From the IMG/VR virus record IMGVR_UViG_3300028559_001813, positions 1 to 23,202 of that record: 23,202 bases of DNA. One strand, 5' to 3'. Below are positions 2,776-21,369 of this stretch, in pieces (positions within the stretch are counted from its first letter, which is position 1; every line of letters begins with the position of its first letter). This DNA comes from a virus. The translations under genes were made by a program, and so were the position numbers. Below the pieces are notes generated by a model. The model saw only the letters and a list, made by a program, of their open reading frames with translations. It did not search any database and was not told the origin of the DNA.

Positions 2776-2805
2776 TTGACACCCACAACAGCGTTGTGTT
2801 ATAAT
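2776..2805 (+). promoter_or_regulatory. Consensus sigma70 promoter, leaderless, for the oxygenase operon
   Basis: A perfect TTGACA (2776-2781) and a perfect TATAAT (2800-2805) are separated by 18 bp. The ATG of the first operon gene is at 2812, six bases after the -10 box, so transcription should begin at the start codon itself. No ribosome binding site can exist on such a transcript. Confidence 0.8.
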
Positions 2806-2811
2806 GGTTAT

Positions 2812-3372
2812 ATGCTGATAGACTACACTCGATATCGTGATTATCCACGACTGGCTGATATATTCCGCAGAGTGAAACAGACCTACAATACAGAACAAGA
2901 CCTACAAGATTTCCGAACGGAAGACTGGACAGAACAATGGAATCAAGGCACGCACTCAGACTCGGCTCCCACTTATTCCTATGACATATACAATCGCTTT
3001 GTGAAAAGAACACCACCCGCGAGATGGAGTGAGTTGGTCGGGGACATCAGCACACTGTCGGGCATCAGTTACTCTGCAATCATAGTGGTGCCACCACATT
3101 CGGTCATGCCCGAGCACACTGATTGGAGCCACATCGAAGGCATGGATGACCGTGAACCGGATCGCACTTACACCATCATGTACTACCTGCGCCAACCCAA
3201 GGCCACAGAACAGGAGTGTGGCATGCAGTGGGGAGATAGGAAATTATACCTGCCGGAAGATTCCATACTGTGTCTCGATGGGGGTCGCAATCCGCATTCG
3301 GTGTACAACCACACCGCTGAGACCAGGGTATCATTTTGTCTAAGTGTGCTGGAAACGAGTTTTGAACTATGA
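2812..3372 (+). CDS. 2OG-Fe(II) oxygenase-like protein, aspartyl/asparaginyl hydroxylase type
   Basis: A 186-residue cupin-type protein. The iron ligands are visible as HTD (His102, Asp104) and a distal His162 in NPHSVYNHT, with Arg172 placed to hold 2-oxoglutarate (TRVSFCLSV). The layout, PPHSVMPEHTDW followed by RTYTIMYYLR and a late HSVYN motif, resembles the aspartyl/asparaginyl beta-hydroxylase family. Such enzymes hydroxylate amino acids or side chains using O2 and 2-oxoglutarate. A longer frame starting with GTG at 2770 is rejected because it would overlap the promoter. First gene of a five-gene operon; its stop overlaps the next ATG in ATGA. The substrate is unknown. Confidence 0.82.
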   Translation: MLIDYTRYRDYPRLADIFRRVKQTYNTEQDLQDFRTEDWTEQWNQGTHSDSAPTYSYDIYNRFVKRTPPARWSELVGDISTLSGISYSAIIVVPPHSVMPEHTDWSHIEGMDDREPDRTYTIMYYLRQPKATEQECGMQWGDRKLYLPEDSILCLDGGRNPHSVYNHTAETRVSFCLSVLETSFEL

Positions 3373-3956
3373 AGATGATAGATAATTTTTTGGCTGTGGA
3401 TTTCGCCAATGAGCTGGAGAGCTATATTATCGGTGAGTTGGACAAGCCCATATGGATGAACGGACATTCTTATTTTGATGCTGAATTTGGCAAGTATTTG
3501 CCAGATAAACAATTTCCCTTCATTGCTCACATGGATACCAAGATGGCAAATAAATTAATACAAACTCTGCTGTCCCAAGGCATACTGACACGAGAGCCAG
3601 CTGACAGCGAAGCATTAATTTACAAAGCCTATCCACTTAGTTCTGTGGAGTGGCATACTGACAAGCATGACGAATATGATAAGAGTCGTGAATGGAAAAC
3701 ACAGAAAGATAAAGATCCGGCCGGGATATCAATATATCTAAACAGAGAATGGCACCCTGATTGGGGAGGTTGTTTCTTGTTGAAGGATAACCATTCAGAC
3801 ACACATGGAAAATTTTATGAGCCCATATTCAACAGAGCAATAATAAACAATGGCAGGGAATTACATTCAGTCAGCACCATCAATGCTGGAAGTAAAAACA
3901 GATACAGCGTGCAATTGTTTCTGAGCAGATCCGCTCTGAGAGAAGATCTACAATGA
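3369..3956 (+). CDS. 2OG-Fe(II) oxygenase (prolyl-4-hydroxylase-like fold)
   Basis: A 195-residue protein beginning MIDNFLAVDFANELE, a typical start for phage and marine 2OG-Fe(II) oxygenases. Iron ligands are His96 and Asp98 in EWHTDKHDEYD and His166 in RELHSVSTI; Arg178 in KNRYSVQLFLS is the likely 2-oxoglutarate anchor. The central segment ISIYLNREWHPDWGGCFLL is the classic P4Hc core strand with WGG. This type occurs repeatedly in T4-like marine phages, mostly with unknown substrates. It is translationally coupled to the genes on both sides (ATGA at 3369-3372 and overlap at 3953-3956). It is not closely similar to its two oxygenase neighbours, so the operon holds different oxygenases and not a recent tandem duplication. 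Confidence 0.9.
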   Translation: MKMIDNFLAVDFANELESYIIGELDKPIWMNGHSYFDAEFGKYLPDKQFPFIAHMDTKMANKLIQTLLSQGILTREPADSEALIYKAYPLSSVEWHTDKHDEYDKSREWKTQKDKDPAGISIYLNREWHPDWGGCFLLKDNHSDTHGKFYEPIFNRAIINNGRELHSVSTINAGSKNRYSVQLFLSRSALREDLQ

Positions 3957-4504
3957 TTTCTCCAATCCAATACCGACACCATGACTTGTTACAACCGCTC
4001 TATCAGCACTGTCGAGCGGACTGGGAGGAATGGGAGAAAGATCATGACATCGAAAAGGAATCAGTCAATGCAGGCGATGTGTATGAAGCCAAGCGGTTGG
4101 ATGATCGTTGTGGTTGGTGGGGAGTGCCTTTGGTTCATTTCTACAAACGTACCAAATGGAGTGATCAATGGCCGCGTACCTACAATGCCAGCAAAGATAT
4201 GCCAGGGGTAATACATGTGGCAGTGAACTTCACCAAACCGGGCTGTGTCATTCCCGTGCATCAGGACAAAGTGGACCGTATCAATGATCGCGTGATAGAC
4301 CTTATACCCACGCTGATAGGAATTCGTATTCCCAGCAACAACATAGACACTGTGGGATTCGAAATAGATAAAAAACGAGTTTATATAGGCGAGGGCGACA
4401 TCGTCAGCTTCCTGCCGGAGCAGCCACATGGCAGTTGGAACTTTTCTAAAGAGTGGAGAGTGACCCTATACATCACAACAGAGAGGCAATGTTGGACATT
4501 ATGA
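3953..4504 (+). CDS. Second aspartyl/asparaginyl hydroxylase-like 2OG-Fe(II) protein
   Basis: A 183-residue protein with the same general layout as the first operon gene. GCVIPVHQDKVDR supplies His103 and Asp105, QPHGSWNFS supplies distal His159, and Arg169 in KEWRVTLYI is the likely 2-oxoglutarate contact. Spacing between the HxD motif and the distal His is similar in the two proteins, suggesting related folds, but overall identity is low. The stop TGA overlaps the ATG of the aminotransferase in ATGA. A role in hydroxylating an intermediate that the following aminotransferase and amidinotransferase use is inferred only from gene order. The family call is less certain than for the P4H-like neighbour. 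Confidence 0.72.
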   Translation: MISPIQYRHHDLLQPLYQHCRADWEEWEKDHDIEKESVNAGDVYEAKRLDDRCGWWGVPLVHFYKRTKWSDQWPRTYNASKDMPGVIHVAVNFTKPGCVIPVHQDKVDRINDRVIDLIPTLIGIRIPSNNIDTVGFEIDKKRVYIGEGDIVSFLPEQPHGSWNFSKEWRVTLYITTERQCWTL

Positions 4505-5595
4505 AAACTTTTCCAGGATTGATATGTGGTGAGCAGAACCCTGTGGGACCAGCACAGCCTTATTGGCAGTATGGCAACATCGTGAATGGAACCAAACAGA
4601 TAGATCCAGTGTTGCACTTTGGTTGTTTCGTGTTGGGATTCCAACGCACAGACATCATAGATTATGTGTGTGAACACATGAAGACCAAACCCGAAGTGGC
4701 CGAGAGCTTTTATTGTGATGACACATTGAAACTCAACGACATAACATGGTCCTTGGCGGAACGCCTACATGGCATGACCGGGTTCAACAGCATATTTGCT
4801 CTCAGTGGCAGCGACGCCAACGAAGGCGCCGTGAAACTGGCCAGCGCATACCAGAAGCAGATGGGGCAGACAAACAGACACCGCATCGTGTCATTTGAGG
4901 ACAGTTATCATGGTTCGACTTTCCTAAACTACAGCATGGGGGACAGCATGTTGAAAGATCCCTTCTACACCCTGCGTCCTTATGATTCGGTAAAAAGACT
5001 GCCCAGAGACTTTGCAGTTTCGGAACATGATTGGTCGGATGTGATATGCGTGATCGTGGAGACTTGTCCATACGGTGATGGGCTCAAGCCCAGCTCCGAG
5101 GAGTTCTGGGGCAAGATCAAAGAGATACAGCAGCAGGGAGTGTTGGTGATTGTGGACGACATATTCATAGGTGGAGGCAAGACCGGCACCGTGTTTGGTT
5201 GGCAGACGCTGCCAATCACGCCAGACATCACCACACAGGGCAAGGCCATCACCGCGGGGTATTTTCCTCTTAGCATCACGATGTACAACAAGAGGATCGC
5301 AGAGGCGTTGCCAGATAAATTTAATTGGGATCATGGCTTCACATACAGTTTCTCACTGCCTGGCATATTGAGTTGCAACAAATATTTAGACATCCTAGAG
5401 CAAGAAAACATATTACAACAACATCAGTTAGTGATCGCCAAGGCCCACGCCATATTTGCGGCACAGGATTACAAAGTGCTGGGGGAGTATGGAACAATAT
5501 TACAGATCAAGAGAAAGAAAGACAAGCATTTCCTTGTGTTGCCGATCAATGCCACAGATGAATACTTCTCTGTGTTGGAGGAACATCTGCGATGA
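4501..5595 (+). CDS. PLP-dependent class III aminotransferase
   Basis: Class III fold-type I aminotransferase or aminomutase. The PLP phosphate-binding SGSDANEGA (102-110), the aspartate that holds the pyridine nitrogen in VIVDDIFIGGGKTG (Asp219/220), and the PLP lysine Lys248 in TTQGKAITAGYFPLS are all present, so it should be active. At 364 residues it is shorter than the usual 420-450. I chose ATG 4501, which overlaps the preceding stop as ATGA; in-frame starts at 4489 and 4453 are possible but overlap the preceding gene more. Members of this class move an amino group between omega-amines or amino acids and 2-oxo acids. Just upstream of an amidinotransferase, it could create the amine that is then amidinated (inference). 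Confidence 0.9.
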   Translation: MKTFPGLICGEQNPVGPAQPYWQYGNIVNGTKQIDPVLHFGCFVLGFQRTDIIDYVCEHMKTKPEVAESFYCDDTLKLNDITWSLAERLHGMTGFNSIFALSGSDANEGAVKLASAYQKQMGQTNRHRIVSFEDSYHGSTFLNYSMGDSMLKDPFYTLRPYDSVKRLPRDFAVSEHDWSDVICVIVETCPYGDGLKPSSEEFWGKIKEIQQQGVLVIVDDIFIGGGKTGTVFGWQTLPITPDITTQGKAITAGYFPLSITMYNKRIAEALPDKFNWDHGFTYSFSLPGILSCNKYLDILEQENILQQHQLVIAKAHAIFAAQDYKVLGEYGTILQIKRKKDKHFLVLPINATDEYFSVLEEHLR

Positions 5596-6653
5596 CCTAC
5601 ACTGAATATGATCCCTTGGAGAGCGTGATAGTGGGAGACACATATTCTCCCGGCGATGTGGATCATCTGTTAAAAAATAATGCCACACAGTTCAACAAGA
5701 TACTGGGAGAGACCAAGCAGGATCTAGACAGCCTGGCGGAATTCCTAAAGAAAGGCAACATACATGTTGAGCGTCCGGTGTTGCACCGCTATGACAGCGT
5801 GAAGATGCCTACATTTGATATAAGGTTACCCATGGCACCTGTCGTGCCAAGAGACGCATTACTGGTGATAGGCAACACCATAATACAAACTTACACCAGT
5901 TACACTGACAGATATTTTGATTCTATCAGTTACTATCACATATTTGAAAAGATGTTCAGAGAGGGTTATCGCTGGATCAGCCAACCACCACCCATGTTGA
6001 CCAATCTCAACACGGAGCATGATTGGTTCGTCAGTGACAGGACCTACAAAGACAAGTTGCCGGACAGGGTGTTATGGCACACCGCCACTATGTATCGTGC
6101 GGGTGATGCTGTCATAGTAAATCATGAGGGTCCGGGATCGGAGACAGGATTGGAGTGGTGCCGCCGAGAATTGCCAGAGTTCAAGTTCTATCACAACACG
6201 GGCACACGCTTCAAGGGATTCGGACACATCGACCATGGCTTCATAATGATAGATGATGACACAGTGATCCACGCGGGATTGGATTGGGTTCCTGAATGCC
6301 TGCGTGAGAAGAAACTGGTCGACGTTGGTGATTGCCTGCCAAAATTGAAGCTGGACAGGTTCGCACGGGATTATGCACAGGCGCAGGACAAAATGGATGT
6401 GGCATGGTTGGACAAGTATTTAGAAAACTGGAGAGGTTATTGCCAAGAAGTGTGCTTCGATCTCAATGTGCTAGTGATCGACAGGCATAACATTGTGTTT
6501 GGTAGGCACCTGCCGGAACTATTTGCCAAGCTGAGAACACTGCGGATAGACTGCCACGTCATCCCCCAAAGACACTATCTATTTTGGGAAGGTGGCATAC
6601 ACTGCTCGACCCTCGACATCAAGAGAAAAGGCGAGAAGAGAAAAATTATCTAA
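5592..6653 (+). CDS. Arginine:glycine amidinotransferase-like protein
   Basis: A 353-residue member of the amidinotransferase family, which moves the amidino group of arginine to an amine and leaves ornithine. Recognisable family blocks are PRDALLVIGNTIIQT (86-100), RYFDSISYYHIFEKMF, GHIDHGF (211-217) and the C-terminal GGIHCSTLDIKRKG, giving catalytic Cys338 and His212. The block that carries the third catalytic residue (FDAAD in vertebrate AGAT) reads LWHTATMYRAG here (161-171), so the Asp appears to be replaced. The enzyme may therefore have altered activity or use another acid. It is the last gene of the operon and overlaps the aminotransferase stop by ATGA; a GGAGG lies about ten bases upstream. 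It converges with the radical SAM gene, nine bases away. Confidence 0.87.
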   Translation: MTYTEYDPLESVIVGDTYSPGDVDHLLKNNATQFNKILGETKQDLDSLAEFLKKGNIHVERPVLHRYDSVKMPTFDIRLPMAPVVPRDALLVIGNTIIQTYTSYTDRYFDSISYYHIFEKMFREGYRWISQPPPMLTNLNTEHDWFVSDRTYKDKLPDRVLWHTATMYRAGDAVIVNHEGPGSETGLEWCRRELPEFKFYHNTGTRFKGFGHIDHGFIMIDDDTVIHAGLDWVPECLREKKLVDVGDCLPKLKLDRFARDYAQAQDKMDVAWLDKYLENWRGYCQEVCFDLNVLVIDRHNIVFGRHLPELFAKLRTLRIDCHVIPQRHYLFWEGGIHCSTLDIKRKGEKRKII

Positions 6654-6662
6654 TAAGAAACC

Positions 6663-7745
6663 TTAAATTATATCCCCGTCGTTCTTCTCGCTGTAGGTAT
6701 ATGCCTCGGGCACCCTGTCCAGCACAGGCAATCCCTTGTTGACATAAGCATCGCGTGTGATGACCTGATGAACGAAATTGGTCATGTAGTCCTGTCTATT
6801 GAACTTGGCCCATGGAGAATGTTTCAATTGCTGCATGTCTATGTTGGTGGCGTCAGGCCATTGTATGATTCTTAGAAAATGTCCATTCATGTAGGCCATC
6901 ATGTGGTACATGTTGTCATCTCCCAGATCATGAGCACTGATCAGTTCATGCCCCATGGACTTTGCTATCTGCTCGATCATCTTGTAGTTCTTGCTGATGT
7001 ATGCAGTGGGCTCCGTGGGCACCCTGCCTATGTTGCTGCCCAGCCTGATCCTGAACTGGAATTTCTTGCCGCTGTTGTAGTAGGGAAATGTGTTGATCTC
7101 TTCCAAGACGTCCCGGAGATGTTCATAGCTCTCCACGGTGTATCCTATGTAATGGAAAAGCAAATTCATGTCTATGCAGTTTTTGATGCCCTGCAGTTGT
7201 TTCTCGTGTGTGTCTCGGCCCTGATAGCTCCAGTGATTTAATCCAATCAGCACTGCGTGGGTCTTGTGCTCCTGCAATTTTTCAACAAACTTTTTCTCGT
7301 GCAGCCTGACCCCGTTGGTCAGTATCACTGCCTTGCGTCCCGAAGCTCTTATGTTGTCAACGATGTCAAACATGTCCCTCCTCACAGTGGCCTCCGCCCC
7401 GGCAAGTATGACATGATCTATCGCTGGTGGGGCAGTGCTGATGTGATTGTAAATGTATTGGAGATCAATGTCCCTTTCTTTGTTGTCAGGTATGTGATAG
7501 CAATGCGGACAGGCCAGCTGACAGCGATTGGTCACCTCTATCATCAAGATCCTGTTGTAGAACCTATTGATTCGCTGTTCCAACTTCTCACAGAATTCAG
7601 CGTCGGGATCCTGGACTATCTTGAAATCACCATGTTCGGGGCAGGACTTGTTGATGTAGCGGACGTTGTCCTCCACAGTGACCTGCGAAGGAATGTGCCT
7701 GTAACAGATATGGCAAAGAGAGTGGGATTCGTATAAAGTTCTCAT
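6663..7745 (-). CDS. Radical SAM enzyme with N-terminal zinc-binding-like domain
   Basis: A 360-residue radical SAM protein. The [4Fe-4S] motif is CxxxCxxC in NRCQLACPHCYH (Cys75, 79, 82). It is preceded by a small domain with CHIC (11-14) and CPEHGDF (35-41), the rubredoxin-like N-terminal block found in the group that contains archaeal tetraether-lipid synthase (Tes) and the pterin dimethyltransferase-like proteins. AGAEATVRRD and AVILTNGV are the expected barrel strands. The C-terminus lacks an obvious SPASM cysteine cluster. The ATG overlaps the SufE stop in ATGA, so it is co-translated with a sulfur/Fe-S helper. The substrate is unknown; lipid or pterin chemistry would be a guess from the family. 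Confidence 0.87.
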   Translation of the reverse strand: MRTLYESHSLCHICYRHIPSQVTVEDNVRYINKSCPEHGDFKIVQDPDAEFCEKLEQRINRFYNRILMIEVTNRCQLACPHCYHIPDNKERDIDLQYIYNHISTAPPAIDHVILAGAEATVRRDMFDIVDNIRASGRKAVILTNGVRLHEKKFVEKLQEHKTHAVLIGLNHWSYQGRDTHEKQLQGIKNCIDMNLLFHYIGYTVESYEHLRDVLEEINTFPYYNSGKKFQFRIRLGSNIGRVPTEPTAYISKNYKMIEQIAKSMGHELISAHDLGDDNMYHMMAYMNGHFLRIIQWPDATNIDMQQLKHSPWAKFNRQDYMTNFVHQVITRDAYVNKGLPVLDRVPEAYTYSEKNDGDII

Positions 7746-8146
7746 CGGCTGTCCGCGTATTTCTTTATAGTAGTAATTAGCAGTCCCAGGCCATTCTGAC
7801 GTTGCACACTGAGCAGTTCCGCCATGCCCAGGGGCGCGAAGTCCTCACGTTTTATTTTTTTTATGCTGCCGTAGCGCTGGCAGTTCAATATGTCCAGCAC
7901 CATGTAGGCAGTGCCCTTGGTTATGAATGCGTCCGCATCAGCCGACAACAACATTTGTTCCTTTTCAAACTTGGGGACCAGCCAGAGATTGCTGGCGCAG
8001 CCGTGTATCTTGAAACTGTCTATCTTGAACTTGGCATCCAATGGAGGTAGTTTCCTGCCCAGTTCTATGATGTATTCCAATCTGTCCGTTCCGGACAATG
8101 GCTTGAGGTTGTCCGACCATTGCTGTATCTTATCTTTTATTTTCAT
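7742..8146 (-). CDS. sufE: SufE-like sulfur acceptor
   Basis: A 134-residue protein of normal SufE length. SufE takes persulfide sulfur from the cysteine desulfurase SufS and hands it to the SufBC2D scaffold. The acceptor cysteine is Cys50 in IHGCASNLWLVP, matching the GCxSxVW motif of the family, and RLEYIIELGRKLPPLD is the typical N-terminal block. It starts inside the end of the Trp-rich gene and has a near-perfect Shine-Dalgarno AAGGAGGA just before the ATG. No sufS is in the window, so it would have to use the host desulfurase. It lies directly upstream of the radical SAM gene, which suggests a local supply of Fe-S clusters for that enzyme; sufB is some 4 kb away. Confidence 0.9.
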   Translation of the reverse strand: MKIKDKIQQWSDNLKPLSGTDRLEYIIELGRKLPPLDAKFKIDSFKIHGCASNLWLVPKFEKEQMLLSADADAFITKGTAYMVLDILNCQRYGSIKKIKREDFAPLGMAELLSVQRQNGLGLLITTIKKYADSR

Positions 8147-8426
8147 GGTCCTCCTTGCGCTGCCACCAGAACCAGAACCTCAGTGCGTCCCGTTTGAATT
8201 GGAAGCTCATGTAGGCCCTGTTCTTGCCGTAGGCACGCTCGTCATAGGTGTCATAGGCCAGATTGTGCCAGTCCGGGTGCGTCCAGAACCACCAGCCCCA
8301 TGAGCCAACACTGTGCCTCTTGCACCATGCTATGAGGTCACCATCCACTCCGTATGAGTTGAGATCTATGTTGTGTCGGAAACGCTGCAGATAACCAGAT
8401 CTCCGACGTCGTTTTTTTTCCGCCAT
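8130..8426 (-). CDS. Trp-rich basic protein of unknown function
   Basis: I do not recognise this 98-residue protein. It begins with a basic stretch (KKRRRRSGYLQRFRH) and contains unusually many tryptophans: GSWGWWFWTHPDW around residues 41-53 and LRFWFWWQRKEDHE near the C-terminus. Despite the aromatic content no segment is hydrophobic and uncharged enough to be a clear membrane helix. It is the first gene of an operon with sufE and the radical SAM gene, overlapping sufE by 17 bases, and it has its own leaderless-type promoter. A structural partner or substrate carrier for the radical SAM enzyme is conceivable but unsupported. Confidence 0.7.
   Translation of the reverse strand: MAEKKRRRRSGYLQRFRHNIDLNSYGVDGDLIAWCKRHSVGSWGWWFWTHPDWHNLAYDTYDERAYGKNRAYMSFQFKRDALRFWFWWQRKEDHENKR
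8149..8156 (-). promoter_or_regulatory. Strong Shine-Dalgarno of sufE
   Basis: AAGGAGGA lies two bases before the sufE ATG, inside the coding end of the upstream gene. It shows that internal genes use anti-SD pairing, in contrast to the first genes of several operons here, which have no leader. Confidence 0.8.
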
Positions 8427-8433
8427 CTACTTA

Positions 8434-8462
8434 ATTATAAATTATTAATGTTTGGTATTCAA
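8434..8462 (-). promoter_or_regulatory. Leaderless sigma70-type promoter of the Trp-rich/sufE/radical SAM operon
   Basis: On the minus strand TTGAAT (8457-8462), a 17-bp spacer and TATAAT (8434-8439) are followed by seven bases and the ATG at 8426. The predicted transcript begins at or one base before the start codon. The promoter fills the 38-bp gap after the UVDE gene. Confidence 0.7.
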
Positions 8463-8464
8463 CC

Positions 8465-9508
8465 TTATAACTGTGACAATGACTGCTCGTAGAGCTGTTG
8501 AGCGGCTAGATTTTTGCCTTTGGCCTCCGTGCAGATGTCGAAATGATCATGGAAGCTCAACGCCCATGCATTGGTTTTTTGATTGGGGAACAAGTCGCTG
8601 TGCGCTCTAAGTTTTTGTTTCTTGCAGCCCAATGCCAATAGGTCCTTGATGCTGTGCAGATGATCATGCATGTGGTCGGGATCGTCTTTGAATGCTGGCA
8701 ATAGTGCCTCATCTCGAAAGTAGGAATAGTGTAATGTGGGCCTCACGCCACGCCACGATTCTATAACCCGCTTGACTCTATCATCATTGGCTTGTATGTA
8801 TTCTTCGTCGCGAATGAGATGATGATGTATGTCCATGACCAAGGCCACATGTTTTTCCAACTTCAGAGAATCATCCAGTCCCCAACCCATTTCCGAATTT
8901 TCTATTGTGATGAGATTGCGTGCCTCGGGGCTGAGCCTGGGCAATACTTTAATAATTCCATCTGGTCCCAGCTTGCCAGATATGTGTACGTTGATCTTGC
9001 AGCCATCATGCCATGTCTTGCCATAGCCCATCCAGCGTGCCATGTCCACGTGATATTCATATTCCAGTATGCTGCGCTCCACTATGTCCGGGGTCTCCGA
9101 TGCCAGCACGCAGAACTGTCCCGGATGAAAACTTATCTTGACGTCATGCTTCCTGGCAGCATCTCCCACGGGCGCAAATATCTTGGCCAGATGATCCTGT
9201 ATCTCTTTCCTTTGCCACCAGTCGATCCAGTTCTTCTCTGTGTAGCCCTGCAGCATTTCCGATCCCAATCTAACCATCCTGCGCTCGGCGGGCAATTGGC
9301 CCACACGCTCGATCATCCTGGTCGCGGCCGCGGCGTTGTGGTTCATGATGTCCCACTGCCTCTGCTCGGCCTCTTCCGGGTGCTCCCGCAGCCAGCGCAT
9401 GGTGGTGCTGCGGCCGTTCAATTCCCTGTCCTTGGCATTGACCTTCATGCCTCCAAATTCTGATCTGTCGTTGAGCCACTTGCAGCAAAAACCTATGCGT
9501 TTTGTCAT
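8465..9508 (-). CDS. UV damage endonuclease (UVDE/UvsE family)
   Basis: A 347-residue TIM-barrel endonuclease that nicks DNA 5' to UV photoproducts and starts an excision repair route independent of UvrABC. Family signatures are the start RIGFCCKWLND, the metal-binding block VKISFHPGQFCVLASE, ITIENSEMGW, the helix-strand LVMDIHHHLIRDEE and LHYSYFRDE near the end, which together carry the His, Glu and Asp metal ligands. Length fits full UVDE. A repair gene of this kind suits a virus exposed to sunlight in surface water. The first codon lies five bases after a TACAAT box whose -35 is TTGACA, so its messenger is probably leaderless. It stands alone as a single-gene unit. Confidence 0.93.
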   Translation of the reverse strand: MTKRIGFCCKWLNDRSEFGGMKVNAKDRELNGRSTTMRWLREHPEEAEQRQWDIMNHNAAAATRMIERVGQLPAERRMVRLGSEMLQGYTEKNWIDWWQRKEIQDHLAKIFAPVGDAARKHDVKISFHPGQFCVLASETPDIVERSILEYEYHVDMARWMGYGKTWHDGCKINVHISGKLGPDGIIKVLPRLSPEARNLITIENSEMGWGLDDSLKLEKHVALVMDIHHHLIRDEEYIQANDDRVKRVIESWRGVRPTLHYSYFRDEALLPAFKDDPDHMHDHLHSIKDLLALGCKKQKLRAHSDLFPNQKTNAWALSFHDHFDICTEAKGKNLAAQQLYEQSLSQL

Positions 9509-10223: not shown

Positions 10224-11373
10224 TGTGCTTGCTCCAGTCATATCCAGGTCTCAGGAAGTCTATCTGCATCTTTTTATAGTTATCATCATTCCAAACGTAG
10301 TCATACGTGCCAGTGACTCCGTCCGCCGTGATGCTATACACGTCAAGATGGCAGGATAATTTCTTTAATATCTCGAAGAAGTCCGTGGTGCCAAAACTCT
10401 TTTGCAAATTTATCTGCCCCAGCTTGACGTAGCCGAAGCTCAGTCTTGGATCATCATAGTTTATGTTGTTCCTTTGCAGCCATTCTCTGAATTTTGATTG
10501 CTCGGCGCTGTGCCACGGGTGCGATCCATCGTCAATCACGTCCCTGCCCCATTCCACGTCAAACTCTCCGCTGTAATATTGCAGGCAGGTTATGGCGGAA
10601 CACACCGCCTCGCTGATGTCCTTGCCCTGCTCGTCTCTGAATACCTCCAGATGCGTTTTGCCTATCTGCGCCCAGTGCAGGTACACTCCTCCCAGCACCC
10701 GGTCATAGCGATTTTTCAAGAATAGATCGTAGTCGCCCGACTCCAATTGATGCCTTGGCGCATTGAGGAAAGTTGTGATCTGCGAAGGTCTCTGCCATTC
10801 TGGCGCAGTGTGCTTCTTCCTGTTGGACAGCACCCAGCTCTCCAGCTCGTGGCACAGGTCATTGAGCTGCCTTATGGCCCACTTGGTCTCGTAATCTGCG
10901 AGACGATAATAGGGACTGAGCTTGCCCACCTCGCCCTGCAGGTCCTCAAAGTATCTGTGCAGTCGGTTCATTGGTTCATGATTCAAGCGCATGTCCGTGG
11001 CGATCACTGACTCTCTGCTGAAGTGATCTTTGATCTCATAGGATTTAAGGCCGGCCACTGTCCATTCATTCTGGTGGTTGAAGCAATTGATCTGGAATAT
11101 GGCATCATTTATCTTGCGGCAGAGGTAATCAGCATCGCGAGGTGAGTCCGCAAAACCCATCCAGCAGTAGTTCTTCTCCAGGTGTAAGTTATTTTTTATG
11201 TTTTGTTTTAATGCATCGATCCAGCGACGTGTGAAATCATTGTCTTCCACTTCGATGAAATAGGACAATGTGTCTTTTCTGTCCTCAGGGTTCCTTAATA
11301 CTACTTCAATCTCTGGTATAGATTGCACTGTTCGCTCCATGTTCGCGGCATTCAACGGAATCCAACCAAACAC
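10216..11373 (-). CDS. Conserved-looking protein of unknown function (385 aa)
   Basis: I do not recognise this protein. It is 385 residues if it starts at GTG 11373, or 374 if it starts at ATG 11340 (MERTVQSIPEIEV); the second start gives a shorter overlap with the upstream gene and may be the real one. It is soluble, mixed alpha/beta, rich in aromatic and charged residues, with no signal peptide or membrane segment. Visible blocks include NYCWMGFADSPRDADYLCRK, DYETKWAIRQLNDLCHELE and SFGYVKLGQINLQKSFGTTD. It lies between a QueD-like gene and a glycosyltransferase gene, and overlaps both, so the three are probably made together. Confidence 0.78.
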   Translation of the reverse strand: MFGWIPLNAANMERTVQSIPEIEVVLRNPEDRKDTLSYFIEVEDNDFTRRWIDALKQNIKNNLHLEKNYCWMGFADSPRDADYLCRKINDAIFQINCFNHQNEWTVAGLKSYEIKDHFSRESVIATDMRLNHEPMNRLHRYFEDLQGEVGKLSPYYRLADYETKWAIRQLNDLCHELESWVLSNRKKHTAPEWQRPSQITTFLNAPRHQLESGDYDLFLKNRYDRVLGGVYLHWAQIGKTHLEVFRDEQGKDISEAVCSAITCLQYYSGEFDVEWGRDVIDDGSHPWHSAEQSKFREWLQRNNINYDDPRLSFGYVKLGQINLQKSFGTTDFFEILKKLSCHLDVYSITADGVTGTYDYVWNDDNYKKMQIDFLRPGYDWSKHNA

Positions 11374-11752
11374 GGCCCCCGCTCTGCTGTTGTATTATCT
11401 TACTTACATGGTTGTACACGTGCTCGGCAAATTTCTCACAGCCCACCGCAGGCATCACTCTCACATCCGCCAGCTTGCCATCCAGCAGCATCAGCGTCTG
11501 GAACTCTGGATCGTCCTCGGCCACGCAGAACGTGTGATCGAATTGCTGCTTCAGCCAGGCCTTGATCTCCTTGAGTCCACCAAAGTCCTGCACCCAGTTC
11601 TTGTCGTCTAATGTTTTGCAGCCGAACACCAATTTGAATGCCAGCGAATATCCATGGATCAGTTTACAGTGTGAATGCACGGCCCGCCATTGCCTGAAAG
11701 CACAGCTCAGCCCCTCGTTGTGATCGTATGTCTTGGTCGAATAGTATGCCAT
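11306..11752 (-). CDS. QueD/6-pyruvoyl-tetrahydropterin synthase-like protein, zinc site degenerate
   Basis: A 148-residue protein that aligns by eye along the whole length of QueD. HSHCKLIHGYSLAFKLVFG matches the C-x3-HGH block, WVQDFGGLKEIKAWL matches the DF-x2-LK block, FDHTF matches LDH, and VECREHGA matches the terminal Glu region. The nucleophile Cys29, His73 and Glu134 are kept. Of the three zinc histidines only His33 is kept: the second of HGH is Tyr35 and the early HR position is in SCAFRQW. It may bind a pterin without normal turnover, or form a new site. A Shine-Dalgarno AGGAG precedes the ATG by seven bases. It heads an operon with the 385-aa protein and the glycosyltransferase. 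Confidence 0.75.
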   Translation of the reverse strand: MAYYSTKTYDHNEGLSCAFRQWRAVHSHCKLIHGYSLAFKLVFGCKTLDDKNWVQDFGGLKEIKAWLKQQFDHTFCVAEDDPEFQTLMLLDGKLADVRVMPAVGCEKFAEHVYNHVSKIIQQQSGGRVWLDSVECREHGANSAIYTRD

Positions 11753-12131: not shown

Positions 12132-13574
12132 TTAACCAACGCTGCCTTCCAGGCTGATGCCGACCAGTTTTTGTGCCTCCACTGCGAACTCCATGGGCAA
12201 CTGTTGCAGCACTTCCTTGCAGAAACCGTTCACTATCAGGGCCACTGCCTGTTCCTGATCCAGCCCCCTTTGTTTGCAATAGAACAATTGCTCCTCACTG
12301 ATCTTGGAGGTCGTGGCCTCATGTTCCGTGGTGGAGGTTGAATTTTTGTTATCGATGTATGGCACGGTGTGTGCGCCACACTTGCTGCCGATCAAGAGAG
12401 AATCACACTGTGTGTAATTTTTTGAATTGGCCGCTTTCTTTGATATGCTTACCAATCCCCTATAGGTGTTGTCAGCGTGTCCTGCGGATATGCCTTTTGA
12501 GATGATCCTGCTTTTTGTGTTTCGGCCGATGTGTATCATCTTTGTGCCAGTGTCTGCCTTTTGATAGTTATTGGTGATCGCGATGCTATAGAATTCACCA
12601 GATGAATGATCCCCTTGCAGTATGCAGCTGGGATATTTCCAAGTGATAGCTGAACCAGTCTCGACCTGCGTCCAGGATATCTTGCTGTTGGTGCCTTTGC
12701 ACAGTCCCCGCTTGGTCACGAAGTTGTAGATGCCGCCCCGGCCTTCTTTGTCTCCGGGATACCAATTTTGCACTGTGCTGTACTTGATCTCGGCATCATC
12801 CAGTGCAATCAATTCCACGTTGGCCGCATGCAGTTGATTCTCATCTCTCATGGGGGCTGTGCAACCTTCCAAGTAACTGACATAGCTGCCCCGATCTGCT
12901 ATGATCAGAGTTCTCTCAAACTGTCCTGTGTTGGATGCGTTGATCCTGAAATAAGTTGAAAGTTCCATGGGGCATCTCACTCCCGGTGGAATGTAGACAA
13001 AAGACCCATCAGTGAACACGGCGGAATTCAACGTGGCGAAGTAGTGGTCGGTCAATGGTATCACTGAACCTAAATATTTTTTAACAAGTTCTGGGTGGGT
13101 CTGCACTGCCTCGGATATGGAGCAAAATATGATGCCCATCTCCTCCAGCTTGCCCTTGTAGGTGGTTGCCACGGACACCGAGTCGAACACGGCATCAACC
13201 GCCACGCCCGCCAACCTCATCTGTTCCGTCAGCGGTATGCCCAATTTTTCGTAGGTCTTCCTGATTTCGGGATCGATGTCCTCCAGTGATTTTGGTCCCT
13301 CCTTGAAGCTCTTGGGTGCTGAATAGTAGTACAGGTCCTGATAGTCTATCTTGGGGTAGTGTGGTTTTTGCCAGTTGGGTTCCGTCATCACTTGCAGGCG
13401 ATCGTATGCCCGGAGGCGCCACTCCAACAACCACTGGGGTTCCTTCTTCTGTTTGGATATGAATCTGATCACGTCATTGTTGAGGCCTTTGGGCGCAGTG
13501 ACGGACTCTATGTCAGTGGTGAATCCATATGCATATTCCTGGTCTATCTGTTGTTGTATCAGCTCTGTTGACAT
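12132..13574 (-). CDS. sufB: Fe-S cluster assembly scaffold SufB
   Basis: Full-length SufB (480 residues), the core subunit of the SufBC2D scaffold on which Fe-S clusters are built. Key elements are intact: [17 protein letters not shown] with the acceptor Cys399, followed by EHEATTSKI (Glu417-His418-Glu419), the metal/cluster ligand region. The N-terminal block [11 protein letters not shown] and [15 protein letters not shown] are typical of bacterial SufB, which usually sits next to sufC, sufD and sufS. Here none of these is adjacent: the gene is the last of a long phage-like operon, 11 bases after the IGNGxSR gene. It would have to work with host SufC and SufD, together with the SufE- and IscA-like proteins of this window. 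No clear Shine-Dalgarno is seen. Confidence 0.96.
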
Positions 13575-17417: not shown

Positions 17418-17427
17418 AGCAGTGCCA

Positions 17428-18204
17428 ATGAACCAGAAATACAGATCCATATTCATCAGCGACGTGCATCTGGGCACACGAGAGTGCAAGGCGGATTACC
17501 TGTGCCAATTCCTAAAACAGAATGACTGCGAGCGGCTGTATCTGGTGGGCGACATCGTGGACGCATGGCAGATTGCCAAGAAGGTTTACTGGCCGCAGAG
17601 CCACAGCAACGTGATACGCAGGATACTGACCAAGGCCAAGCGCGGCACGCGGGTTTACTACATCCTGGGCAACCATGACGAGATACTGCGCAACTGGTTG
17701 GGTTTCGGGCTCAAGTTCGGCCGCATCAGGATCATGAACGAGCATGTGCATGAGACCGTGGATGGTCGACTGCTGCTGGTCACGCACGGAGACCTGTTCG
17801 ACGGCATCACAGTGATGGCACCCTGGCTGGCATGGCTGGGCGACTCTGCCTACCAATTGGCTCTGTGGATCAACAACATCTTCAATCACACCAGGAAGTT
17901 GCTGGGCATGGACTATTGGAGCATGAGCAAGTTCCTCAAACACAACGTCAAACGGGCGGTGAGCTTCATATTTGAATTTGAAAAAAATCTTGCCCAACTA
18001 TGCCACCGGCAGGGCTATGCGGGAGTGATCTGTGGACACATACACACTCCGGAGATCAAGGCGATCAATGAGGTGCTGTACATGAACTGCGGTGATTGGG
18101 TGGAGAGCTGCACTGCCCTGGTGGAACACATGGATGGCAGATTTGAATTGATACACTGGAAAGAGATTGATCATGAATCCCATGTGGAGGTGCCGCATGA
18201 GTGA
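17428..18204 (+). CDS. LpxH-like calcineurin-type phosphoesterase (UDP-2,3-diacylglucosamine hydrolase family)
   Basis: A 258-residue metallophosphoesterase of the COG2908/LpxH-like group. The two-metal site is complete: SDVHLG (Asp12, His14), GDIVDAW (Asp42), GNHDE (Asn82, His83), THGDLFD (His120) and CGHIHTPEI (His204, His206). The conserved MNCGDWVESCTAL block follows. LpxH cleaves UDP-diacylglucosamine in lipid A synthesis; this subgroup is common in alphaproteobacteria and not all members have that activity. ATG 17428 is preferred to an upstream GTG at 17422. It is the only plus-strand gene in the right half and is flanked by small membrane-associated proteins, which would fit a role at the cell envelope. 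A bacterial origin is likely. Confidence 0.88.
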   Translation: MNQKYRSIFISDVHLGTRECKADYLCQFLKQNDCERLYLVGDIVDAWQIAKKVYWPQSHSNVIRRILTKAKRGTRVYYILGNHDEILRNWLGFGLKFGRIRIMNEHVHETVDGRLLLVTHGDLFDGITVMAPWLAWLGDSAYQLALWINNIFNHTRKLLGMDYWSMSKFLKHNVKRAVSFIFEFEKNLAQLCHRQGYAGVICGHIHTPEIKAINEVLYMNCGDWVESCTALVEHMDGRFELIHWKEIDHESHVEVPHE

Positions 18205-18231
18205 TCCCACGTCGATATCTAAAAAAAACGT

Positions 18232-18492
18232 TTATTGATTTTTATTTTTCTTCTGTTGCTCTTCCTGGTGCTCCAGGATCACGTTGAGCTTGGTGTTGAG
18301 CCTGATGAGGTCATTGTCCAGCATCCTGATCCTGTCCACCAGTGCTATAAGCGTCTTGCTGGTCTCGCTGGTCACGGGCTTGATCTCCATGGTCACCCAC
18401 TTCCAAACATAGAATATGAAGTAGCCAAGTCCTCCCGCGGCTATAATGGGGAAGCCATAGGTGTTGATCATCTGTATGAGATCTTTGGTCAT
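18232..18492 (-). CDS. Small membrane protein, paralogue 2 (one TM helix plus coiled coil)
   Basis: An 86-residue protein with one transmembrane helix (about residues 13-31, GFPIIAAGGLGYFIFYVW) and a charged coiled-coil tail ending in EEQQKKNKNQ. It aligns with its upstream neighbour through GFPI-AA near the start and a D-R-(I/V)-(R/K)-x-(L/M)-(D/N)-x-D-(L/V)-I-R pattern in the tail, so the pair arose by duplication. One TM followed by a charged coil resembles BhlA/UviB-type holin-like proteins, but other membrane roles are equally possible. Its ATG follows the neighbour's stop by one base. Confidence 0.75.
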   Translation of the reverse strand: MTKDLIQMINTYGFPIIAAGGLGYFIFYVWKWVTMEIKPVTSETSKTLIALVDRIRMLDNDLIRLNTKLNVILEHQEEQQKKNKNQ

Positions 18493-18493
18493 G

Positions 18494-18772
18494 CTAATCT
18501 TTTCTGGCGTCGGTCTTGCCGTCCGCCCTGCCGATCCTGTCCAGGTCCGGCCTGATGTTGAGCGTGGCGCTGACCAAGGTGTCGATCCTGATCACGTCAG
18601 CATTCATGGTCTTGACCCTGTTGTCCAGGGACTCGATTATGCCACTTAATTTTTTCACGTCGGACGTCACGGAAGCCAGGATGAATTTTAAAGTGAGGAA
18701 CACGAAGAATCCACAGGCTATCGCCGCAGCTATGGGAAATCCCACGTCCAATGTCAGTTTCAAGAAGTCCAT
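18494..18772 (-). CDS. Small membrane protein, paralogue 1 (one TM helix plus coiled coil)
   Basis: A 92-residue protein with one hydrophobic segment (about residues 11-34, GFPIAAAIACGFFVFLTLKF) and a tail with heptad-like spacing (KKLSGIIESLDNRVKTMNAD). It is the first of two tandem paralogues and is probably co-transcribed with the second. A CATAAATA box lies ten bases before the ATG, so expression may be late, which would fit a lysis or virion-associated role (inference). Confidence 0.75.
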   Translation of the reverse strand: MDFLKLTLDVGFPIAAAIACGFFVFLTLKFILASVTSDVKKLSGIIESLDNRVKTMNADVIRIDTLVSATLNIRPDLDRIGRADGKTDARKD

Positions 18773-18782
18773 AATAGGACTG

Positions 18783-18790
18783 TATTTATG
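18783..18790 (-). promoter_or_regulatory. T4-late-like promoter box upstream of the small membrane protein pair
   Basis: CATAAATA on the minus strand is one base from TATAAATA and ends ten bases before the ATG at 18772. It lies in the 21-base gap after speD. If transcription starts at the usual distance, the leader would be only about four bases. Confidence 0.45.
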
Positions 18791-18793
18791 TGT

Positions 18794-19228
18794 CTAGGCC
18801 AGCACCTGTAAGGCCTTGCGGATGCGTCGCTTGCGCATGGGCACAACTGCTCCCGTCAGGGGTATTTCCTTGAGGTCGGTCTCGCGATCCAGGAACTTGT
18901 AGTCCATCTTGATCACGCCAAAACGCCGCATGAAGTCGAAAACCACGTCGGTGTCCAGTGCTCCACAGGTGTAAACGTCCAGCTGTATCATGGCCGGATT
19001 GCCCTCGTCCCAGGTGTGCATCACTATGTGCGATGTCTCGATGATGGCGAAGCAGGTCAGTCCCCGGTTGCCAGGCACGTCCACATATCTGGCCTCTGGG
19101 CCAAACAGCGTCTTCATGTTGATTGCCTCTATCAGTTGTGTTAGTGATTGTTTTGCTAGTGTCTCATCTTTGGGTGGGTCGCTTACTTCAGCTCGCACTA
19201 TCAAGTGCTTGTGAACAAGTGTGGTCAT
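18794..19228 (-). CDS. speD: S-adenosylmethionine decarboxylase (SpeD family)
   Basis: A 144-residue bacterial/phage-type AdoMet decarboxylase, a self-cleaving pyruvoyl enzyme that makes decarboxylated SAM for spermidine synthesis. The key block is FAIIETSHIVMHTWDEG followed by LDVYTCGA: the serine that becomes pyruvate is Ser66, with His71 and Cys88 in place. The residue before the cleavage site is Thr65, where the usual motif has Glu (ESH); Glu64 is one position earlier. speD genes are known in marine cyanophages. No spermidine synthase is in the window. The start has AGGAG (19240-19244) and a TTGACA-containing promoter, so this gene has an ordinary leader, unlike the leaderless units. Confidence 0.92.
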   Translation of the reverse strand: MTTLVHKHLIVRAEVSDPPKDETLAKQSLTQLIEAINMKTLFGPEARYVDVPGNRGLTCFAIIETSHIVMHTWDEGNPAMIQLDVYTCGALDTDVVFDFMRRFGVIKMDYKFLDRETDLKEIPLTGAVVPMRKRRIRKALQVLA

Positions 19229-19267
19229 CTTTTATTTGTCTCCTGTGACATTGTTAACGTATAGGCT

Positions 19268-19296
19268 ATTTAACAATATCTTTTAAAATCTGTCAA
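19268..19296 (-). promoter_or_regulatory. Sigma70-type promoter of speD, with leader
   Basis: TTGACA (19291-19296), a 17-bp spacer and TTAAAT (19268-19273) on the minus strand. The predicted leader is about 30 bases and contains a CACAGGAGA Shine-Dalgarno that is also found, nearly identical, before the QueD-like gene. Confidence 0.6.
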
Positions 19297-19338
19297 TTAG
19301 AATCTTCTTTTTATAAAAAATTTTTTGTGAATAAAAAA
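19297..19338. other. AT-rich tract between cyclase stop and speD promoter
   Basis: A 42-base stretch of A and T runs, including a palindromic A6T6. It sits exactly after the adenylate cyclase stop and before the speD promoter, so it may help end transcription, but there is no GC-rich hairpin and the assignment is weak. Confidence 0.3.
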
Positions 19339-21351
19339 CTATTTTGAAGTGGCGCGATAGATACCTGACCAGTCCGCTGGCACTGCCTCTGACAATCGAT
19401 CTGTCATCATGTAGTAGTATTTTTTCAGCTGAGGATTTTTTTCTTTCAAATTCTCCAGCAAAATAAGGGCATTTTTCCACTCTCCGGCATAGTAGAATTT
19501 CAAAAACTGTTTGTGTTCTCCTGTCTCACAACCTACAGTGTATATTTTTACGCCCTCCTGCTTGCCCTTGACGGCGATGCAGTCCAGTTCGGTCACTGCA
19601 TGTATGTCCTTGACCATGTACGCAGTGCGTGGTCCCAGCACCAGATCCACTCCGTAGGGCTTGCTCTGTCCCTCCAGTCGTGAAGCCAGGTTGACAGCAT
19701 CACCGAGACAGGTGTAATCAAAGCGTTGATCTGACCCCATGTTGCCCACAACCACTGATCCAGTGTTGATGCCCAGCCCCATGCCGAACGCTGGCACGCC
19801 TTCCTTGGCTATCTCCTCGTTGAATTGCTTGAGATTGACCAACATCTCCATCGCGGTCCTCACTGCGTTGTGTGCGTGCATGGCATCATTCAAGGGAGCG
19901 TTCCAAAAAGCCATCTGTGCGTCCCCGATATACTTGTCCAGTGTGCCACCGTTGTTCAATATGCTCTTGGTCATGGCGGTCATGTAGCGATTCATTATGG
20001 CAGTGAGCCCCTGCACATCGGCTCCATAGTGTTCACTTATGGCAGTGAAGCCCCTCACGTCCGTGAACATGATTGTGAGCTCTCGGGTCTCGCCGCCCAG
20101 TCGCAGCAGTTCTGGGTTGCTCTGCAATCGTTCCACCATGGCAGGAGATAGATAGGTGCCAAATTGTTTCTTGATCTGTTGCTTGAGGGTGAACTCTCTC
20201 ACGAAGCGATTGAATATGGCATGCATGCCCACTATGGTCAGAGTGATGATGAACCAACTCACGTCCCATAATTGTAATCTGCTGTGGAAAAAATAATTGG
20301 CAAAGTACAATGCTGCCACATATAATGCAATCATGCCCATTCCCACGATCCAATAGGCAGCAAATCTTGCGAGAATCACCACGGCTATTGCTGTCACTGT
20401 GCTGATCAACAGCTCTACGAAATTAGCAAAGTCATATCTCACAATGTTGTCACCCATCAGCACAGTCTGTAGAGAACTGGCCACGGCCATGTAACTGTAT
20501 TGGGTGCCTGTGGGTGTGGCCATGGTGCTGCCTATGCCCTCGGCCGATGTGCCAATGATCACGGTCTTGCCTTTCACTGCTGAAAAATCCGCATCAGCGG
20601 CGCTGATGCTTTTGAAATCGTAGGCCCATCTGATCCATATCCTGCCATGAGCATCTGTCTGTATGGTCTTGTATTGGGGCACCCTCAGTGCCGTGATGCC
20701 ACCTGCCTGTGTTTTCACTTGATAGCTGGGATCTCCTGTGGCCACTCTGATGGTTTCCAATGCCAAGGCAGGATAGATCTCTTCTCCGATCTTCATTAAT
20801 AACGGAATTCTTCTTGTGACACCATCGATTTCTGGCGCTGTGTTCAACACACCCACTCCCCCGGCCGCTGTGGATAAACTTTCGATAGGACCCAACATGC
20901 CAGGCCATTCAAACAACCACGGCAGGGGATCTCCTATCTTGGCCACTCCTCTTGGCACTGCATTGTTCTTTTGCGACTGTGCCGTGCCCACCTGTGCCAA
21001 CACCACTCCATTGTCCTGTATGGCTGCTGCGAACGCTTCGTCGCCACCCAGGCGGTCCTGTTCACTGAACAATATAGGAAACACGATCACGCCACCCTCG
21101 TTGGCTCGCACACGCTCAACAATGTCTGCCATCACTGAGCGTTTCCATGGCCATTGTCCATACTGCTCCATGCTTTTCTCATCAATGTTGATGATCACGA
21201 TTTCATTGGACGTGGTGCGATCTTGATTGATTTGAAGTATGTCAAATGATTTCAATCTCAAAGTTTCTTTGATGTAAGGATCTTGCAGTCCCATCAAAGT
21301 CAGCACAAACACCGTGACGAACACAGTGGTCCAATGAGTGATCCATTTCAT
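19339..21351 (-). CDS. CHASE2-domain adenylate cyclase (class III), membrane-bound
   Basis: A 670-residue signalling enzyme. An N-terminal TM (about 5-20) leads into an extracytoplasmic CHASE2 sensor domain (about 25-300, with RLKSFDILQ, EIVIINIDEKS, GQWPWKRSVMADIV and TVIIGTSAEG), then three TM helices (about 308-380) and a class III cyclase domain (about 420-600). Catalytic residues are intact: metal Asp431 (FTDVRGFT) and Asp477 (DKYIGDAQMAFW), Lys473 for adenine, and Asn554/Arg558 in GDAVNLASRLEG. It should make cAMP in response to an outside signal. ATG 21351 is preferred; the frame extends to 21402 but would overlap the upstream gene. An AATAAATA box ends ten bases before it. It is an unusual gene for a phage and may come from an alphaproteobacterial host. 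Confidence 0.94.
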   Translation of the reverse strand: MKWITHWTTVFVTVFVLTLMGLQDPYIKETLRLKSFDILQINQDRTTSNEIVIINIDEKSMEQYGQWPWKRSVMADIVERVRANEGGVIVFPILFSEQDRLGGDEAFAAAIQDNGVVLAQVGTAQSQKNNAVPRGVAKIGDPLPWLFEWPGMLGPIESLSTAAGGVGVLNTAPEIDGVTRRIPLLMKIGEEIYPALALETIRVATGDPSYQVKTQAGGITALRVPQYKTIQTDAHGRIWIRWAYDFKSISAADADFSAVKGKTVIIGTSAEGIGSTMATPTGTQYSYMAVASSLQTVLMGDNIVRYDFANFVELLISTVTAIAVVILARFAAYWIVGMGMIALYVAALYFANYFFHSRLQLWDVSWFIITLTIVGMHAIFNRFVREFTLKQQIKKQFGTYLSPAMVERLQSNPELLRLGGETRELTIMFTDVRGFTAISEHYGADVQGLTAIMNRYMTAMTKSILNNGGTLDKYIGDAQMAFWNAPLNDAMHAHNAVRTAMEMLVNLKQFNEEIAKEGVPAFGMGLGINTGSVVVGNMGSDQRFDYTCLGDAVNLASRLEGQSKPYGVDLVLGPRTAYMVKDIHAVTELDCIAVKGKQEGVKIYTVGCETGEHKQFLKFYYAGEWKNALILLENLKEKNPQLKKYYYMMTDRLSEAVPADWSGIYRATSK

Positions 21352-21361
21352 AATATGTGTA

Positions 21362-21369
21362 TATTTATT
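21362..21369 (-). promoter_or_regulatory. T4-late-like promoter box upstream of the cyclase gene
   Basis: AATAAATA on the minus strand, one base from TATAAATA, ends ten bases before the ATG at 21351, the same distance as for the small membrane protein pair. It overlaps the stop codon of the curlin-repeat gene. Confidence 0.42.

Follow-up and report, generated by a model that had tools for sequence, protein, structure and literature searches.

A five-gene phage operon and its promoter

We analyzed a complete IMG/VR virus record, IMGVR_UViG_3300028559_001813 (23,202 bases; hereafter, the window), which carries a compact metabolic operon at positions 2812-6653. The operon consists of five intact, in-frame open reading frames (ORFs) that encode three 2-oxoglutarate (2OG)-Fe(II) oxygenases, a class III aminotransferase (AT) and a pentein with the GATM fold. 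The operon and its upstream region contain the following features:

2776..2805, + strand: sigma70-type promoter, TTGACA-N18-TATAAT with an extended -10 TG (12/12 consensus match)
2784..2798, no strand: dyad CACAAC-AGC-GTTGTG in the promoter spacer, with perfect 6-bp arms and a 3-nt centre (read directly; possible operator)
2812..3372, + strand: oxy1, 2OG-Fe(II) oxygenase of the Asp/Arg-hydroxylase type (Pfam Asp_Arg_Hydrox, 20.5 bits, below the cut-off; invariant motif)
3369..3956, + strand: oxy2 (oxyB), P4H-like 2OG-Fe(II) oxygenase (Pfam 2OG-FeII_Oxy_3, 5.5e-8)
3953..4504, + strand: oxy3, 2OG-Fe(II) oxygenase of the Asp/Arg-hydroxylase type (Pfam Asp_Arg_Hydrox, 4.5e-7, over the cut-off)
4501..5595 (alternative in-frame ATG at 4492), + strand: class III AT dependent on pyridoxal phosphate (PLP) (Pfam Aminotran_3, 1.2e-38)
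5592..6653, + strand: GATM-fold pentein, amidinotransferase-like (best PDB profile match HsvA, 5wpi, 1.6e-38; fold match 3.1e-18)

According to the ORF coordinates, all four junctions are ATGA overlaps, and the promoter is the sole perfect match to the consensus in the 2-7 kb region of the window. These data confirm the compact five-enzyme operon with a consensus promoter that a preliminary description of this DNA had claimed. With 6 nt between the -10 box and the first ATG, the operon message is probably leaderless; this promoter and short-leader layout is retained in three relatives (L003, L004 and L022). The dyad was considered as a conserved operator and rejected, having no counterpart in L003 and L004. 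A T4-late-promoter-like motif, [TC]ATAAATA, occurs at most 60 nt from the operon start in 11 of 30 clusters of relatives, versus 38 of 491 other starts, and in the window the sigma70-type promoter stands in its place.

Comparison of the window with its close relatives L003 and L022 points to purifying selection on each of the five genes: the ratio of nonsynonymous to synonymous substitutions (dN/dS) is 0.04-0.25 where dS is unsaturated, and oxy2 evolves fastest (0.19-0.25). In L003, the AT and the pentein are 96-98% identical to those of the window and the oxygenases just 60-84%, so the cassette looks mosaic. The operon is not a chance arrangement, since the same gene order recurs across many contigs and dN/dS is low.

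Catalytic residues of the oxygenases and the aminotransferase

The oxy1 and oxy3 genes are paralogues. Oxy1 scores below the Asp_Arg_Hydrox cut-off of 22.6 bits, whereas oxy2 and oxy3 exceed their cut-offs. The iron triad and the distal arginine are invariant in the oxy1/oxy3 family alignment (H102xD104, H162 and R172 in oxy1), and the corresponding HxD..H..R pattern is kept in 50 of 50 members of the oxyB family. No credible sequence match to a solved enzyme was found for oxy1 or oxy3. The AT is clearly a class III enzyme (Aminotran_3, 133 bits), in which the PLP lysine K248 and the pyridine-nitrogen aspartate D219 are invariant across a 13-row alignment. The possibility, raised in the preliminary description, that several of the enzymes are inactive therefore finds little ground in these motifs, which are intact; the exception is a replaced residue of the pentein.

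A pentein with a changed active site

The pentein has no Pfam or NCBIfam match. In a PDB profile search its best match is HsvA, followed by StrB1, and the matches also include SxtG and human AGAT. The predicted model (predicted local distance difference test score, pLDDT, 71.5) has 5wpi, 6u1r, 1jdw and 1bwd as its top Foldseek matches, with E-values down to 3.1e-18, and this predicted fold supports membership in the GATM/AGAT amidinotransferase family. As applied to this protein, 'amidinotransferase' denotes its fold and family.

Residue equivalences were counted along the human AGAT alignment from the PDB profile search. Pentein residues D88, H212, D214 and C338 correspond to AGAT D170, H303, D305 and C407. 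Among the phage relatives, the equivalents of D170, H303 and D305 are conserved in 90 of 90 proteins, and the cysteine in all 89 that have a residue there. AGAT D254 is one of the three residues of the catalytic triad. Its position is occupied in the pentein by H163, and by histidine in 90/90 phage relatives checked; because of this replacement, arginine-derived amidino transfer by the pentein cannot be assumed from its sequence.

A divergent clade of 404-432 aa penteins (L260, L294, L303, L304 and L328) adjoins a small protein that we call CPFA. An asparagine aligns at the D254 position in this clade, where the alignment is uncertain, and L303 and L328 carry tandem copies.

The changed position bears on two alternatives. 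The pentein may have moved past amidino transfer to another Cys-dependent reaction (hydrolysis, use of another donor or another C-N transfer) with a non-guanidine product. The histidine of all 90 relatives, the asparagine aligned in the divergent clade and the fixation of the remaining active-site residues agree with such a shift. On the other hand, the pentein still resembles HsvA, StrB1 and AGAT overall and retains the other active-site residues, the histidine might functionally stand in for aspartate, and the asparagine depends on the uncertain part of the alignment. We regard this alternative as rather unlikely. The other alternative is a creatine/guanidinoacetate pathway, following the GAMT annotations in marine viruses (PMC11360552). 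The pentein does resemble AGAT in sequence and fold, but the aspartate of AGAT is replaced throughout the relatives, and the pathway requires neither an AT nor 2OG oxygenases; this explanation is highly improbable.

Distribution and genomic context of the pentein

Relatives of the pentein numbered 36 in a first scan of virus contigs and 180 in a second (at least 180 viral contigs). Two scans covering 84,980 bacterial and archaeal species yielded none, although these relied on short peptide patterns that divergent relatives could escape; a host origin of the pentein was rejected on the same screening. Within the collections searched, the pentein clade is phage-restricted. The readable proteins form 33 clusters at 90% identity, of which 31 have enough upstream sequence for analysis of the gene neighbourhood.

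Within 3 kb of the pentein, an AT is found in 25 of these 31 independent clusters, a 2OG oxygenase in 25, and both in 24. The genes are thus largely kept together in relatives, and the scattering that the preliminary description had named as evidence against a joint function was mostly not observed. Overlaps of 4 nt join oxyB to the pentein in 37 loci and the AT to oxyB in 25. We distinguished four recurrent layouts: (i) the window type, oxy1-oxy2-oxy3-AT-pentein; (ii) another 2OG family ('NIYHRY'), a 175-aa protein without an assigned family, AT, oxyB and pentein; (iii) several 2OG genes, AT, pentein, the decarboxylase SpeD, radical SAM proteins and a tryptophan-halogenase-like flavoprotein; and (iv) SpeD and/or the 145-aa CPFA protein with the pentein and without the AT. 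Among further AT loci, 48 of 72 possess the pentein, and most of the remaining ones (L115-L142) have the AT and no pentein.

Several genes in these neighbourhoods deserve separate description. The tryptophan-halogenase-type flavoprotein (L014, 6274-7833, and relatives; Pfam 7.5e-93) shares clusters with AT, pentein and SpeD. The CPFA protein (~145 aa, motif CP[FY]A; L030 9562-10005, L004 6732-7169, L033 10517-11314 and others) adjoins the pentein or is fused to SpeD, the fusion being found in L033. Its model is confident (pLDDT 82), yet it matched no PDB fold and no Pfam or NCBIfam family. Two loci with an AT and no pentein that were read in detail, L131 and L139, have, by eye, a 2OG-like gene upstream and T4 gp46/47-like genes downstream. 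A virus contig, L005, carries a hydroxymethylbilane synthase gene (hemC, 3977-4837) above the NCBIfam cut-off.

The neighbourhoods also bear on the possibility that the operon makes an aminated, guanidinylated sugar for the virion, the capsule or the lipopolysaccharide, by a streptidine-like logic with the pentein in the role of StrB1. StrB1 ranks second among the PDB sequence matches of the pentein, and a PHROG glycosyltransferase is encoded in the window. Synechococcus phage S-SCSM2R carries an amidinotransferase-like gene in one row with KdsA, KdsB and 2OG genes, and the pentein homologue of Campylobacter phage CP220 accompanies sugar-nucleotide transferase-like genes. However, identity to these cultured homologues is just ~25%, with differences at active-site positions, and enzymes for sugar nucleotides are neither coupled to the operon nor recurrent among the main neighbour families. 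Moreover, aminotransferases for nucleotide sugars belong to the DegT/SMAT family, while the AT of the operon is class III. We regard a surface-glycan pathway as unlikely.

SpeD-family decarboxylases

The window encodes a candidate supplier of small amines:

18794..19228, - strand: SpeD-family pyruvoyl decarboxylase of the pelagiphage arginine-decarboxylase type (Pfam AdoMet_dc)

The self-processing and catalytic residues of this protein (S66, H71 and C88) are invariant and align with those of T. maritima SpeD. It is 51% identical to SpeD of pelagiphage HTVC201P, with which it has the motif ETSHI..H.W...QLDVYTC in common. The HTVC201P protein is an arginine decarboxylase by assay (PMC9992855), and on the strength of this motif and identity the window SpeD is assigned to the arginine-decarboxylase type, with arginine as its putative substrate. 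An ornithine-decarboxylase residue pattern, Gln/Thr/Phe/Tyr, has also been described in the SpeD family (PMC10407285). As far as the alignment shows, SpeD of L023, L029 and L030 fits this pattern, in full for L023 and L029.

SpeD genes of these two types neighbour the pentein in layouts iii and iv, and 26 of the 31 records in the first pentein set have a SpeD homologue. In L023, a homospermidine synthase gene (7707-9143, E 7e-102) stands in one row with SpeD, CPFA and the pentein and lies immediately upstream of them.

The decarboxylases weigh on a further alternative, in which the enzymes decorate a base of the phage DNA. Phages are known to make aminated bases, the pentein clade is phage-restricted, and the window contains a QueD homologue. 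Conversely, partners of the amino-acid decarboxylase type are found in several clades, and the oxygenases match Asp/Arg-hydroxylase and P4H families; no TET/JBP or modified-base synthesis gene was recognised by Pfam among the five operon proteins, to which this assessment applies, the window being a genome fragment. The late-promoter-like motifs of some relatives would also be late for nucleotide metabolism. DNA hypermodification is, on balance, distinctly unlikely.

Proposed pathway

We propose, with a probability of roughly 40%, that a tailed phage uses the operon as a biosynthetic cassette to build a small, nitrogen-rich metabolite during infection, by oxidation, amination and then further modification of a small arginine- or polyamine-related amine. 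First, a small molecule would be oxidised by the three oxygenases. The carbonyl thus formed could then be aminated by the class III AT, and the Cys-His pentein would modify the new amine via a covalent Cys intermediate, most likely to a guanidine or a similar group with a C=N bond. As the starting compound, we consider a free amine derived from arginine or from polyamines most likely; a SpeD-family decarboxylase, which may convert arginine to agmatine in the window phage and ornithine to putrescine in others, would supply or recycle it. The phage might benefit from a supply of polyamines or cations, or from a bioactive amine. We infer the order of reactions, the class of substrate, the amidino chemistry and the benefit to the phage.

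A free amine of this kind is preferred over DNA as the substrate because of the SpeD-type neighbours, the single occurrence of homospermidine synthase and HsvA as the closest structure. The preliminary description had considered a free metabolite, a peptide, or a base or sugar on DNA; the free metabolite is favoured here and DNA is not, given the oxygenase types and the SpeD-family partners. It had also suggested hydroxylation, amino-group transfer and addition of an amidino group from arginine. An oxidise-aminate-then-pentein logic indeed recurs across phages, while amidino transfer from arginine is not established, in view of the conserved histidine.

Several observations weigh against the proposed cassette for an arginine- or polyamine-related amine. 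The change from Asp254 to His may imply a different donor or reaction in the pentein. The AT occurs without the pentein in about one third of the further AT loci, and the distant pentein homologues of CP220 and S-SCSM2R adjoin sugar genes. The window SpeD lies 12 kb from the operon, outside the cassette, its link to the operon being inferred from other phages. In the second pentein set, SpeD is present in just 1 of 38 records, which include contigs of 77-92 kb, and a reverse search found no pentein within 6 kb of window-type SpeD genes at any of 80 loci. As a universal partner of the pentein, SpeD was therefore rejected, and so was homospermidine synthase as a regular one, being found in L023 alone. 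From these counts, SpeD is a clade-specific partner of the pentein cassette. The decarboxylase link is suggestive but not general, because 37 of 38 other records lack SpeD and it is distant from the operon in the window.

In a wider reading, to which we give less than even odds, a large phage-restricted pentein lineage, with D254 replaced by His (Asn in the divergent branch), could perform a changed C-N transfer and, together with the coupled 2OG oxygenases and class III AT, constitute an undescribed virus-specific pathway that is widespread in aquatic phages.

Other genes in the window

Next to the operon and convergent to it is a gene whose relatives occur near the pentein in other phages:

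6663..7745, - strand: radical SAM protein with an HMPTM-type zinc ribbon (Pfam Radical_SAM, 1e-15)

The Fe-S assembly genes of the window are all on the - strand and include a SufA-like gene (2392-2727), a SufE-like gene (7742-8146) and a full-length sufB (12132-13574, 901 bits); no SufC, SufD or SufS was recognised by eye in the window. A gene similar to QueD/6-pyruvoyl-tetrahydropterin synthase (11306-11752, - strand) scores below the NCBIfam cut-off. The right end (17422-22651) contains genes that look host-like by eye, namely an LpxH-like gene, a CHASE2-type adenylate cyclase and a curlin-like repeat protein. Tail-fibre genes suggest that the virus is a tailed, T4-like phage. The T4 capsid family PF07068 was tried as a test of phage type and matched nowhere, in the controls likewise, so it was uninformative.

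Comparison with known systems

Our literature search found no paper that links 2OG oxygenases, a class III AT and this type of pentein. The statement in the preliminary description that no phage pathway with this gene set has been described is thus fair for the set as a whole; amidinotransferase-like genes of phages, by contrast, are already on record, in CP220/CPt10, in S-SCSM2R and as K00613 annotations.

Among characterized proteins, HsvA of Erwinia amylovora (5wpi) is the best match to the pentein in both sequence and fold, and its Cys, His and two Asp are kept. The title of its paper, as it appears in the references of PMC12833800, names it a polyamine amidinotransferase. Identity in the fold alignment is ~22%, the pentein has His at the D254 equivalent, and its operon combines it with 2OG oxygenases and a class III AT. 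GATM/AGAT and StrB1 share the GATM-type pentein fold and the C407, H303, D170 and D305 equivalents, but AGAT D254 and StrB1 D179 correspond to His in 90/90 phage members. 'Glycine amidinotransferase' (K00613) calls appear in a survey of virus genes (PMC8226683), and GAMT annotations have led to the proposal of creatine metabolism in marine viruses (PMC11360552); judging by the residue pattern, the K00613 label is unsafe for the pentein lineage.

Campylobacter phages CP220 and CPt10 contain interchangeable modules of five radical SAM genes with an amidinotransferase-like gene (PMC2853527). They resemble the window operon as phage gene modules that combine an amidinotransferase-like gene with redox enzymes, and differ in that radical SAM proteins, not 2OG oxygenases, adjoin this gene. 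The CP220 pentein is 26% identical and keeps the Asp; no His is found at its H303 position in the alignment. The SpeD-derived arginine and ornithine decarboxylases of phages (PMC9992855, PMC10407285) are matched by the window SpeD through the HTVC201P motif and sequence identity, whereas neither paper links them to an amidinotransferase cluster, the word 'amidinotransferase' being absent from both texts.

Finally, T4-like cyanophages also possess abundant, multi-copy genes for 2OG-Fe(II) oxygenases, while those of the window are translationally coupled to an AT and a pentein. If the product is real, the cassette represents a virus-restricted multi-enzyme biosynthetic pathway common to many aquatic phages, and it provides a concrete, testable context for the abundant 2OG oxygenases of T4-like phages.

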